From contig NZ_RBZY01000009.1 in NCBI RefSeq assembly GCF_004022425.1, positions 1 to 64,000 of the forward strand: a stretch of 64,000 nt of DNA, given 5' to 3'. Positions 35,265 to 39,699 of the stretch are shown here, in pieces. Source of the DNA: Microbacterium enclense (GTDB taxonomy: Bacteria > Actinomycetota > Actinomycetes > Actinomycetales > Microbacteriaceae). Every line of letters starts with the position of its first letter. The stretch's first letter is position 1. The position numbers and the translations under genes were made by a program. The notes beneath the pieces are model-generated. The model saw nothing but the letters and a program-made list of their open reading frames with translations, made no database searches and was not told where the DNA came from.

Positions 35265-35792
35265 CTACGCCGGAGTCCGCAACCGGTCGGCCGCCTCGTT
35301 CTCGAGGTCGAGCAGGAAGTGCTTCACCTCGGGATGCCCGCCGTATTCCCCGATCGACCCGTCGGCGCGGACGACGCGATGCACCGGGACGACGATGGAG
35401 AACGGCGTCATCGCGCACGCCGTTCCGACCGCGCGCGCCGCCCCGGGGGACCCCGCCATGATCGCGACCTCGCCGTACGAGGCGACCTCGCCGTAGGGGA
35501 TGCGTCGCACCGCCTCCAGCGCCGATCTCGTGAAGCCGGTGACCAGGCGCCAGTCGAGCGGGATCTCGAACACCCGCCGCCGGCCCGCGAAGAACTCGTC
35601 GAGCTGCACCGTCGCGTCCCTCGCGGGCGCCGGATCGGGGTCGGGAACGACGCCCAGGCGCTGCGCGATCGCTGCGCGAGCAAGATCGATGCCGTCGTGC
35701 GCGACATCGAGATGAACGAGGGCGTCGTCGACGAAGGTCAGCAGGATCGGGGCGAAGGGGCCGTCGTAGACGGTGCTGGTGACTGTGCTCAT
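35265..35792 (-). CDS. alkyltransferase-like protein (MGMT fold, Cys replaced by Val)
   Basis: The 175-residue protein is built like methylated-DNA:cysteine methyltransferase, with RIPYGEVASYGEVA (DNA-intercalating Tyr), RAVGTACAMTPFSI (Arg finger), and the active-site region. The catalytic PCHR reads PVHR; the DNA codon is GTG, so this is not a simple point change from TGC or TGT. The Asn normally eight residues earlier is Thr. DNA-flipping residues are kept but methyl transfer is impossible. This is the profile of alkyltransferase-like (ATL) proteins, which flag O6-alkylguanine for nucleotide excision repair. It diverges from the helicase-like gene. Confidence 0.9.
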   Translation of the reverse strand: MSTVTSTVYDGPFAPILLTFVDDALVHLDVAHDGIDLARAAIAQRLGVVPDPDPAPARDATVQLDEFFAGRRRVFEIPLDWRLVTGFTRSALEAVRRIPYGEVASYGEVAIMAGSPGAARAVGTACAMTPFSIVVPVHRVVRADGSIGEYGGHPEVKHFLLDLENEAADRLRTPA

Positions 35793-35954
35793 TCCTTCAT
35801 CCTCATCACGCGTCGCGCCCGCCGCGGCGGCTTCCGGCCGATCGGTGGACGGTCCCCGCAATCGCGCCTCGGGGGAGGAAGGGCCGATCGTCCGGCGTGT
35901 CGCGCAATCGAGCGAAACTCGGGTCCGCTGCACGCCTTCTGCAGGTGCCCGGCT

Positions 35955-35960
35955 TAGTCT
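35955..35960 (+). promoter_or_regulatory. -10 box of the helicase-like gene
   Basis: TAGTCT, seven bases before the GTG at 35968. Confidence 0.45.
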
Positions 35961-35967
35961 GGCAGGT

Positions 35968-38900
35968 GTGTGGCGAGCTGAGGACGGCGTCGTGACGGGC
36001 GCCGAAGGCGACGTTCCGACGTCGATCGATCCGGGCGAGCTGCGACTGTCGGAGCCCGGCATCGTGGTTCGTCACGTCGCCGACCCCGAACGCGACCGGA
36101 TCCGCGCGGAGGCGGCTGCCCTCGGCGGGCGATCGACGTTGCTGCGATTCGACGACGCGCGTGACGCCGGCATCGACATCACCAAGGCCCACCCCGGTTC
36201 TCTGCCGCAGTTCATCACCGGTCGAGCGACGCTCCTGTCGAATCTGTTCCGCGACGAGGTCGCCCTGCGCACCGCCCGCATCGCCGCGGAGCGCATCACG
36301 GCGAAGAACGTCGAGCTGCGCACGGCCCGTGGCCTCGAGCCCGTCCACCTCGCGGTGGGCCTGGCCGGCTGGAAGATCGGGGGAGTGGAGTGGTCCGCCC
36401 CGGTGCTGCTGAGGCCGCTCGCGATCCGCCGTCACAACGGTGACTTCGAACTCAAGCTCCACGGCGCGTTCGTCATGAACCCCGAGCTGGCCCGCGCCTT
36501 CCGCACCCACCTCGGCATCCCCATCGACAGCACCGCGCTCGCGAGCCTCGCGTACGACCAAGGGGTCTTCAAGCCGCAACCGGTGATCGACCACCTGCGT
36601 CGCCTCACCACGCACGTGCCCACGTTCGTCGTCCACCCCCGTCTGATCATCTCGTCGTTCGCCGACGTCGGATCGGGCATGGCGCGCGACACGCAGCACC
36701 TCGATGTCGCCCTGCTGAACGCGCTCGCCGGCCACCCCGACGATCGCGCGCGCGTCACCGTGCGTCCGTCCGACCCGGTCGTCACGAGCCCCGACGAGCG
36801 CACGCCCGCCGCCGACACCCTTCTCCTGGACGCGGATGCCGAGCAGGAACGGGTCCTCGCCCGGATCGCGGCCGGTCACTCTCTCGCCGTCCACACCCTG
36901 CCCGGCACGGGCGGGACGCAGACGATCATCAACGCGATCGGTCAGTGCGTGCACGCGGGCAAGCGCGTCCTCGTCGTCAGCGCTCGCCGCTCCACGCTGG
37001 ACGGCATCCGCCACCGCCTCGCCGGTGTGGGACTCACCGGACTCGCGGTGTCGCCGACCCACGTGCGCCGCGATCTCATCCGTGCCATCGGTCGCAACGA
37101 GAAGGCCGAGCAGCCCAAGGTCTCCGAGATCGACGACGCTCTCGTCCGCCTGCGGTCGGTGCTGCGCGACTACCGCTCCGCCGTCACCGAGCCGCACCTG
37201 GCGCTGGGCGTTTCGGCGCTCGACGTGCTGCGGGCGCTCACCGCACTGGCATCCATCTCTCCGGCGCCCTCGACGACCGCCCGGTTCGATCTCGCGACGC
37301 TCGAACGCCTCGCCGGACGCCGCGACGCGGCGGCCAAGGCGCTGGCAACGGCGGCGCGCCTGGGGGAGTTCCGTTTCGGCCCCGACGACTCGCCCTGGTA
37401 CGGCGTGAGCTTCACGCGCACCGAAGACGCGCGCGCCGCCCACGACCTCGCGGGCAAGCTGCACGCGCAGGACGTTCCGCGCCTCCTCGAACGCGGATAC
37501 GAGCTCATCGCGCAGACGCGCATGCGGCCCTTCCAGACGGTGTCCGAGCTGGGCGCGTACCTGAAGCTGCTGCAGGGCATCCGCGAGTCGCTGGATCGCT
37601 TCAGCCCGACCGTGTTCGAGCGACCGCTCGGCGAGCTCATCGACGCGCACTCGCCGCGGCGGGACTCGTCCGCGATGAGCGGACCGAACCGTCGGCGTCT
37701 GCGCCGGCTGTCGAAGGAGTACGTGCGGCCCGGCGTCCACGTGCCCGACATGTACGAGGCGCTCGTGCGGATCCAGCAGCAGCGCACCGAGTGGCAACGC
37801 GTCGTGGACGCGGGCGTCACGCCCGAGGTGCCGCTGGGCCTGGCCGACGTCCACGTCGGCTGGCAGCGGGTCGATGCGATGCTCGGCGAACTCGACCAGA
37901 TCCTGGGGCGGCAGGGCTCCGAGCGCCTCGCGACGCTGCCGGTGCAGGTGCTCGTCCGCACGCTCGCGGGGTTGGCGGCGGAGTCGACGTTCTTCGACAA
38001 TCTCGTCGAGCGCGCGCAGCTGCGCGGAGAACTCGCGCGCCTCGGTCTCGAGCAGCTCCTCGTCGAGCTGTCGGTGCGGCACGTCCCGGAAGACCGGGTC
38101 GGCGACGAACTCGAGTTCGCCTGGTGGCAGTCGGCGCTCGAGCACCTGCTGCGCACCGATCGGGCGCTCCTCGGGGCCAACACGAGCGTCGTCGACCGCC
38201 TCGAGCGCGATTTCCGTCTCGTCGACGAGGCGCACGCGGCCGCGGCCGGACCCCTGCTGGCCGCCGAACTCGCGAAGCAGTGGCGCATCGGCATCGTCGA
38301 TCACCCGGACGAGGCGGCGGCGCTGAAGTCCGCGCTCAAGGACGGTCTGCACACCGCGCAGGAGATCGCGGATGCCGCTCCGACCCTGTTGCGCACGCTC
38401 GCACCGGTGTGGCTGGCATCCCCGTACGACGTCCCCGACGTTCCGACCGACCTCGCCTTCGACGCGGTCATCGTCGCCGACGCGGCTGCGCTGTGCCTGA
38501 CCGAGGCCGTTCCGGCGCTGCTGCGCGCCCGGCAGGTCGTGCTGTTCGGCGATCCCGTCGTCCAGAAGCCCACACCGTTCCGTGTGAGCGCCTCGCTCTC
38601 CCCGACGGCCGCCGATGACGCGGACGACGTCCTCTTCGACACCGTGTCCGTCTTCGAGCGGATCGCCGAGCTGTTCCCCGTCGAGACGCTCACGCGCAGC
38701 TATCGCGCGGGCGGCGAAGACCTCGCGCAGCTGGTCAACGACGCGTTCTACGGCGGCGAGATCGTGTCCCTTCCCTGGGCGGGCTCGTACCTCGGACGCG
38801 GCAGCCTCAGCGTCGACTACGTCGAGAACGGCGTCGGCGCGCCCGACCCGGTCAGCGGCGCGGTCGAGAGTCCGGATGCCGAGGTCGCCCGTGTCGTGAC

Positions 38901-39699
38901 CCTGGTCGTCGAGCACGCGGTGAACCGCGCCACCGAGTCGCTGATGATCGTCACCGCCAGTCGCAAGCACGCCGAGCGCGTGCGTGCGGCGGTGGAGGCG
39001 GCGCTCGCGGGACGCTCCGACGTCGCCGCGTTCATCTCGCGGGATGCCGCCGAGCCCTTCGCCGTGCTGACCCTCGAGGAGTCCGTGGCCGAGAGCCGCG
39101 ACCGCGTCGTGTTCTCGCTCGGTTTCGGTCTCACCCGTCACGGCCGTGTGCTCAGCGACTTCGGCGACCTCTCGACCCCCGACGGAGAGCGTCTGCTGAC
39201 GGTCGGCATGACCCGGGCTCGCCGGTCGATGGTCATCGTCTCGTCGATCCGTCCGTCGGCCTTCGACGACGGTCGTCTCGAACACGGCGCCGCGACGCTC
39301 ATGGGCATCCTCGGCAACCTCGCCGGCCGAGGCCGCGAGTCCCGCCTGGAGGACCTCGCCGACCCGCTCACGCGTGCGCTCGCCCGCGAACTCCGCCGTC
39401 TCGGAGTGGAGGTCGACCTCGACTACCGCGGTCTGCTCCCGCTCGTGGCGCGTTACCGCGGCAAGGCGGTCGTGGCCGAGAGCGACCCCGAGACGATCGG
39501 CGAGTCCCTCCGCGAGACCCTGCGGCTGCGTCCGCAGATCCTCCGCCGGCTCGGCTGGCACTACGTGCGGGTGCACGCGTTCGATCTCTACAGCGACCCC
39601 GCGGGCGTGGCATCCAAGATCGCCGAGCTCCTCGGGCGTGCGCCGGACGACGCCGCGGCGCCGGGCACGAGCACCGAGCCCCTCGACCTGCCCGGGTGA
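35968..39699 (+). CDS. SF1 helicase-like protein with degenerate ATPase motifs
   Basis: The 1,243-residue protein has the architecture of Upf1/DUF4011-type SF1 helicases: motif I near residue 315, a long coiled central insert (about 380-820), then motifs II, III and the C-terminal RecA fold. The motifs are altered. Walker A is LPGTGGTQTI (Lys replaced by Gly); motif II is VIVADAAALC instead of DEAS; motif III keeps VVLFGDPVVQKP; the later MTRARRSMVIVSS and LTRSYRAGGEDLAQ are well kept. The C-terminal 150 residues resemble a PD-(D/E)XK-like or MrfA-type end domain (LGWHYVRVHAFDLYSDP), as in many COG1112 proteins. ATP hydrolysis looks unlikely. GTG 35968 fits the leaderless pattern; GTG 35992, with GAGGA seven bases upstream, is the alternative. 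Confidence 0.85.
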   Translation: MWRAEDGVVTGAEGDVPTSIDPGELRLSEPGIVVRHVADPERDRIRAEAAALGGRSTLLRFDDARDAGIDITKAHPGSLPQFITGRATLLSNLFRDEVALRTARIAAERITAKNVELRTARGLEPVHLAVGLAGWKIGGVEWSAPVLLRPLAIRRHNGDFELKLHGAFVMNPELARAFRTHLGIPIDSTALASLAYDQGVFKPQPVIDHLRRLTTHVPTFVVHPRLIISSFADVGSGMARDTQHLDVALLNALAGHPDDRARVTVRPSDPVVTSPDERTPAADTLLLDADAEQERVLARIAAGHSLAVHTLPGTGGTQTIINAIGQCVHAGKRVLVVSARRSTLDGIRHRLAGVGLTGLAVSPTHVRRDLIRAIGRNEKAEQPKVSEIDDALVRLRSVLRDYRSAVTEPHLALGVSALDVLRALTALASISPAPSTTARFDLATLERLAGRRDAAAKALATAARLGEFRFGPDDSPWYGVSFTRTEDARAAHDLAGKLHAQDVPRLLERGYELIAQTRMRPFQTVSELGAYLKLLQGIRESLDRFSPTVFERPLGELIDAHSPRRDSSAMSGPNRRRLRRLSKEYVRPGVHVPDMYEALVRIQQQRTEWQRVVDAGVTPEVPLGLADVHVGWQRVDAMLGELDQILGRQGSERLATLPVQVLVRTLAGLAAESTFFDNLVERAQLRGELARLGLEQLLVELSVRHVPEDRVGDELEFAWWQSALEHLLRTDRALLGANTSVVDRLERDFRLVDEAHAAAAGPLLAAELAKQWRIGIVDHPDEAAALKSALKDGLHTAQEIADAAPTLLRTLAPVWLASPYDVPDVPTDLAFDAVIVADAAALCLTEAVPALLRARQVVLFGDPVVQKPTPFRVSASLSPTAADDADDVLFDTVSVFERIAELFPVETLTRSYRAGGEDLAQLVNDAFYGGEIVSLPWAGSYLGRGSLSVDYVENGVGAPDPVSGAVESPDAEVARVVTLVVEHAVNRATESLMIVTASRKHAERVRAAVEAALAGRSDVAAFISRDAAEPFAVLTLEESVAESRDRVVFSLGFGLTRHGRVLSDFGDLSTPDGERLLTVGMTRARRSMVIVSSIRPSAFDDGRLEHGAATLMGILGNLAGRGRESRLEDLADPLTRALARELRRLGVEVDLDYRGLLPLVARYRGKAVVAESDPETIGESLRETLRLRPQILRRLGWHYVRVHAFDLYSDPAGVASKIAELLGRAPDDAAAPGTSTEPLDLPG

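Follow-up and report, generated by a model that had tools for sequence, protein, structure and literature searches.

A two-domain alkyltransferase-like protein of Microbacterium that lacks the methyl-accepting cysteine and probably acts as a DNA damage sensor

The locus, its active-site residues and the predicted fold

The window, by which we mean the whole stretch of 64,000 nucleotides that was analysed, contains a minus-strand gene for a protein of 175 amino acids, here called P0001. Its open reading frame begins with an ATG whose first base is 35792 and ends with a stop codon at 35265–35267. An intergenic region separates it from a divergently oriented helicase-like gene. The features of the locus are given below, each with its evidence in brackets; "genus" refers to Microbacterium.

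35265..35792, minus strand: Cys-less two-domain alkyltransferase-like gene, P0001, 175 aa (ORF, Pfam, AlphaFold2 model, PDB match)
35553..35792, minus strand: N-terminal ribonuclease-like domain, residues 1–80 (PF02870 at residues 7–80; full-length structural match)
35298..35534, minus strand: C-terminal DNA-binding/active-site domain, residues 87–165 (PF01035)
35475..35477, minus strand: Tyr106, the base-flipping Tyr, kept (135/135 genus sequences compared; E. coli alignment)
35433..35435, minus strand: Arg120, the Arg finger, kept (134/135 genus sequences, one gap; E. coli alignment)
35415..35417, minus strand: Cys126, conserved and ancestral (Cys in 62/70 family-set and 10/31 phylum-set homologues)
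35406..35408, minus strand: Thr129, replacing the Asn hinge (genus T 106, S 27, C 1, A 1, n = 135; other genera N in 49/49)
35397..35399, minus strand: Ser132, replacing the Pro of the alkyl pocket (genus S 123, T 10, A 2, n = 135; other genera P in 49/49)
35382..35384, minus strand: Val137 (GTG, 35384–35382), replacing the methyl-accepting Cys (genus V 107, A 31, n = 138 readable)
35379..35381, minus strand: His138, kept (134/135 genus sequences, one gap)
35334..35342, minus strand: active-site loop with Gly151 and His153 (alignment of the genus against relatives)
35301..35303, minus strand: Glu164 of the His–Glu relay, kept (134/135 genus sequences, one gap)
35793..35955, no strand: intergenic region before the divergent neighbour (a block is conserved among 17 close copies when these are aligned)
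35956..39699, plus strand: divergent helicase-like gene, start approximate (Walker A without its Lys; weak REase_MTES_1575 match below the Pfam cut-off)

The active-site stretch of P0001 reads ACAMTPFSIVVPVHRVV, in which PVHR replaces the canonical PCHR. Alignment with E. coli Ogt, the C-terminal part of Ada and the E. coli ATL places Tyr106, Arg120, His138 and Glu164 at their expected positions, and both Ogt and Ada have Asn where P0001 has Thr129. The first-pass annotation had described this same combination, namely a GTG-encoded Val in place of the acceptor Cys, Thr in place of the Asn eight residues upstream, and an intact DNA-flipping Tyr and Arg finger, and the minus-strand reading frame and the alignment bear it out in full. 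Within the active-site loop, position 151 is Gly in P0001 and mostly I, L, A or V in relatives, and position 153 is His; most genus sequences have H or R there, where relatives have Gly. The human equivalents are Tyr114 (Tyr106), Arg128 (Arg120), Asn137 (Thr129), Pro140 (Ser132), Cys145 (Val137) and Glu172 (Glu164), with numbers taken in part from PMC6150290 and PMC10779285.

The C-terminal domain is matched strongly (PF01035, E 1.9e-28) and the N-terminal domain narrowly above its cut-off (PF02870, 23.5 bits against 21). The methyltransferase model TIGR00589 gives 87.6 bits, where 46.4 would suffice. This wide margin makes automatic naming as an active methyltransferase likely, as the first-pass annotation had anticipated; the model passes a protein without an acceptor Cys, and the same is likely for the homologues in the genus. 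An AlphaFold2 model built from 41 related rows (mean pLDDT 93.7) confidently predicts a two-domain O6-alkylguanine alkyltransferase fold, whose best PDB match is M. tuberculosis OGT (4wxc, Z 22.6 over 162 residues, 36% identity). The S. pombe and Vibrio ATLs align with the model over only 80–83 C-terminal residues (Z 6.9–7.7). Just 8 residues of P0001 follow the segment aligned with Atl1, a count that comes from structural alignment only and bears on the C-terminal extension loop of ATLs.

Spread within Microbacterium and origin of the Cys-less lineage

A profile built from 21 proteins of the genus (match threshold E < 0.001) matched all 295 sampled Microbacterium genomes, 286 of them at E ≤ 3.6e-55. 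Five of the nine weaker genomes are incomplete assemblies (44–87% complete) with a weak match only, and the copy in G262 contains unread letters. In the near-complete genomes G001, G402 and G474 (loci L238, L237 and L236), the gene is split by frameshifts, with pieces that still read PVHR, and in G309 and G473 (L228 and L225), which belong to the 286, the N-terminal part sits in another frame. These frameshifted copies may reflect sequencing error or real loss.

The residue at the Cys position was read in the fetched loci only, a part of the 295 genomes, which yielded 171 genus rows above 100 bits and 140 distinct sequences; two of these are fragments with a gap at this position. All 138 readable distinct sequences carry Val or Ala and none carries Cys, so that the Cys loss, whose conservation the first-pass annotation had proposed to survey, extends across the genus. 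The codons are GTG (92), GTC (10), GTT (5), GCG (19), GCC (10), GCT (1) and GCA (1), compared with TGC (57) and TGT (13) in the family set. A Cys would be expected first in the 20 genomes whose strong match is weaker than 1e-65; these were read, and all have Val or Ala. The 80 named loci, the best 80 of at least 445, are titled Microbacterium (74), Frigoribacterium (1), Microbacteriaceae (1) and taxa given only as Actinomycetota or Actinomycetes (4). A base-calling or assembly error, or chance, is ruled out by the absence of Cys from every readable sequence; an error is also contradicted by the paralogue, a second copy that reads PCHR with Asn in 21/21 Microbacterium genomes read.

The frameshifts in G001, G402 and G474 and the shifted N-terminal frames in G309 and G473, if they are not sequencing errors, would fit a decaying, functionless remnant. 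The strong match in 286 of the 295 genomes argues against such decay, as do the many invariant positions among genus proteins that are only 49–90% identical to P0001. Similarly, dN/dS is low in near pairs: 0.08–0.16 for P0001 against five near copies, and, among the 12 genus pairs of lowest dS, 0.04–0.22 in all but one, which gives 0.43. The median of 0.49 over all 7896 genus pairs was set aside because dS is saturated there in this GC-rich DNA. We therefore regard a remnant as very improbable.

Relatives were searched in 199 family genomes, three of them from Microbacterium, and in 296 phylum genomes, and their sequences were read in the loci returned or fetched. Among the matches listed, all distinct homologues above 100 bits have both Cys and Asn (70/70 in the family set, 31/31 in the phylum set); both sets include second-type paralogues, and the family-set row L182 comes from a Microbacterium genome. 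Two loci, L173 (G157) and L263 (G707), read GGCHR and AACHR instead of PCHR, with Cys kept. In an alignment of 135 genus and 49 other-genus sequences, positions 129, 132 and 137 have no residue common to the two groups, positions 91, 95, 119, 151 and 153 have hardly any, and Tyr106, Arg120, Pro136, His138, Arg139, Lys157 and Glu164 vary very little in either. The Asn hinge, the Pro and the loop residues changed together with the Cys loss in the genus.

Alkyl transfer might persist through Cys126, which lies near the base pocket; of the 140 distinct genus sequences, 137 have a residue at this place, and it is Cys in every one. This residue is ancestral: it is shared by family- and phylum-set homologues in the numbers given above, all of which also have the active-site Cys, and E. 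coli Ada has Cys at the same place. We consider Cys126 an unlikely acceptor on these grounds, and continued transfer through it very improbable.

Two trees place the loss. The first comprised 169 rows (90 of 129 genus, 57 of 65 family and 22 of 31 phylum full-length rows, thinned by identity), from which the three trait columns (Cys, hinge and Pro) had been taken out. In it a single branch (SH-aLRT 92) separates the genus proteins from the others; the Cys loss counts as one change, and changes among Cys, Val and Ala together as nine. The nearest row from outside the genus to this clade is L151, which has kept its Cys (group support 87). The second tree was thinned to 34 genus, 26 family and 16 phylum rows, with the three trait columns left in and rows on long branches of the first tree removed by name (up to eight family loci, L151 included, and one phylum row); here the Cys-less clade has support of 100/97 and a long stem of 0.42 changes per column. 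Judged from these trees, a single ancient Cys loss on the branch that leads to the Microbacterium clade explains the distribution. The first-pass annotation had held that Cys-bearing homologues in sister species would point to a recent loss; no sequence read within the genus clade has Cys, which rules out such a recent event, and since the sister genera have Cys and the genus clade lacks it, the loss is old and lies on the clade stem. A simple ortholog swap is too simple an account, since at least G380 and G010, both Microbacterium, have a further copy, with PCHR, whose place in the tree is among those of other genera (eight extra places were fetched). The Cys-less lineage may represent either a paralogue of long standing or an orthologue that has been displaced.

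Genome context and the divergent helicase-like neighbour

The genome that encodes P0001 also contains a UvrA gene and, on contig C88, a gene of the Ada type, with Ada metal-binding, AraC HTH and AlkA_N, directly upstream of a PCHR Ogt, so that direct reversal is covered elsewhere. The neighbourhoods examined revealed no gene link to nucleotide excision repair (NER), and a scan for a LexA-like box, which would point to SOS control, gave no hit in the stretch upstream of 17 close copies.

In 65 fetched loci of other genera, to which some genomes contribute more than one locus and some of which hold second copies, an ECF sigma gene adjoins the relative in 50 and tag (3-methyladenine glycosylase) in 23. 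The corresponding counts for the Cys-less gene in 59 short Microbacterium loci are 0 for ECF sigma and 6 for tag (G220 counted twice); among the 80 named loci (the best 80 of at least 445), four have tag at a distance of up to 8 kb. The ECF sigma gene found beside the PCHR relative in L115, L124, L130, L149 and other sister-genus loci, sometimes with a second ogt, suggests a possible sigma-controlled alkylation response in those genera. One Microbacterium group (L220, L222, L226, L227, L229–L231, L234, L235 and L116) has, in place of the divergent helicase-like gene, CofC-like and luciferase-like neighbours, joined in all but L116 by a class-III aminotransferase gene.

These observations bear on the reading that the Cys-less protein is a non-catalytic DNA-binding protein that recognizes another base, a modification or DNA shape, or that it is a regulator. 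Its pocket residues changed together, and its context is unlike that of active relatives (ECF sigma at 50/65 loci of other genera versus 0/59 short genus loci). It keeps, on the other side, the Tyr, Arg finger and pocket scaffold that are typical of O6-alkylguanine binders, and tag adjoins the gene in some lineages of the genus. We consider another target or a regulatory role unlikely, but the most serious competitor of a lesion sensor.

The divergent helicase-like gene neighbours the Cys-less gene in 78 of the 80 named loci (again the best 80 of at least 445). Its Walker A motif reads GTGGTQT, with Gly in place of Lys, in 77/77 aligned genus-locus rows, window copy included, and GTGG or GTGA in all 29 rows read out of the 31 of a family alignment in which the window sequence occurs twice; motif II is AD in 65 and VD in 12 of the 77 rows. 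A homologue is present in 99 of 100 family genomes. The protein is a conserved helicase-like core protein, probably with a dead ATPase. It would be one candidate partner if Microbacterium had a separate class of two-domain Cys-less sensors that relies on a lineage-specific partner instead of UvrABC; its gene is divergent from the Cys-less gene in most genus loci examined. We consider such a class improbable. As a general partner the protein is unsupported: it is near-universal in the family, and 12 low-scoring Microbacterium loci (L116, L220, L222, L226, L227 and L229–L235) did not show it within their short flanks.

Proposed function and comparison with known systems

Taken together, these results are best explained by a full-length alkyltransferase of the Ogt type, in which the Cys was lost once and which was kept as an O6-alkylguanine sensor that is not consumed, with hand-over most likely to UvrA, a reading that we hold to be fairly likely. 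The Cys-less Microbacterium protein is thus probably a damage sensor. In the proposed mechanism, the HTH of P0001 would scan DNA, and Tyr106 and Arg120 would flip O6-alkylguanine, or a similar base, into the remodelled pocket. As alkyl uptake would be impossible without an acceptor Cys, the protein would stay bound and, as for ATLs, could mark the damage for repair by another route, of which UvrA-led NER is the most likely. We infer lesion binding, absent transfer and hand-over to UvrA from the combined analysis, and we regard the hand-over as the weakest link of the model.

Published work on active enzymes bears on this model in both directions. A two-domain archaeal AGT with Cys replaced by Ala (C119A) has been crystallised on O6-methylguanine DNA, according to an excerpt of PMC4605297, so that loss of the Cys need not abolish lesion binding. 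The same excerpt reports that bulky variants, with Leu or Phe at the Cys, melted at about 45 °C instead of 80 °C, and this destabilisation by bulky replacements counts against the sensor reading of P0001, although the variants it describes do not include Val. In E. coli OGT, docking suggests a pocket made narrower by the Ser that stands in place of Pro140, and S134P widened the range of the enzyme (PMC6150290, in part); the P0001 pocket would therefore not be clearly enlarged as in ATLs. Further points against a sensor are the presence of the N-terminal domain, the absence of an NER gene neighbour and the frameshifted copies.

A catalytic alternative is that the His–Glu pair activates water and turns the protein into a multi-turnover dealkylase. 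His138 and Glu164 are kept in 134/135 genus sequences (one gap), and hydroxyl residues arose at positions 129 and 132. We know of no precedent for such an enzyme, which counts against it. The E. coli ATL also keeps the His, yet is reported to be without activity (PMC10779285, in part). Of all readings weighed here, we give a dealkylase the least credence.

A Cys-less alkyltransferase fold that serves as a damage sensor is a kind of protein already known. According to excerpts of PMC10779285, ATLs have no N-terminal domain, mostly carry Trp at the Cys position, lack the Asn hinge, bind O6-alkylguanines tightly and bind UvrA, and in the ATL model the flagged lesion feeds NER. The open-access literature searched describes neither a Val/Ala type nor a genus-wide two-domain version. 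The Cys-less clade offers a natural experiment in how a suicide repair enzyme becomes a reusable sensor within one family, and the relatives with Cys, at 43–47% identity, make the changes at positions 129, 132, 137, 151 and 153 individually testable.

The ATLs of E. coli (YbaZ), S. pombe (Atl1) and V. parahaemolyticus likewise have no acceptor Cys and no Asn hinge, and they share the base-flipping Tyr, the Arg finger, the HTH and the C-terminal fold with P0001. The ATL pattern seen in the first-pass annotation thus stands for the lost Cys and Asn and the kept Tyr and Arg, but membership in the ATLs is not supported. ATLs, as far as the same excerpts describe them, have one domain and mostly Trp, whereas the P0001 clade has two domains and Val or Ala; in a tree with the E. 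coli ATL, a single ATL on a very long branch, the proteins of Microbacterium cluster with enzymes of the Ogt type. The N-terminal domain and this grouping point to an independent route, and the Microbacterium protein looks like a convergent ATL-like state rather than a classical ATL. T. thermophilus TTHA1564 has Ala at the Cys position. It is the only AGT homologue of its genome and is annotated as an ATL (PMC7216122, in part).

The closest clade in the trees is formed by the Ogt-type enzymes of Microbacteriaceae and Actinomycetota, which have two domains too (three examples, L120, L130 and L244, are 43–47% identical to P0001). Compared with them, the P0001 clade has Val or Ala for Cys, Thr or Ser for Asn, Ser or Thr for Pro, and a changed loop. 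Active Ogt/AGT enzymes in general share the two-domain fold with P0001, which lacks their PCHR acceptor Cys. M. tuberculosis OGT (4bhb, 4wx9, 4wxc and others) matches the model at Z of about 22 over 153–162 residues with 36–39% identity, and has the Cys of PCHR where P0001 has Val.
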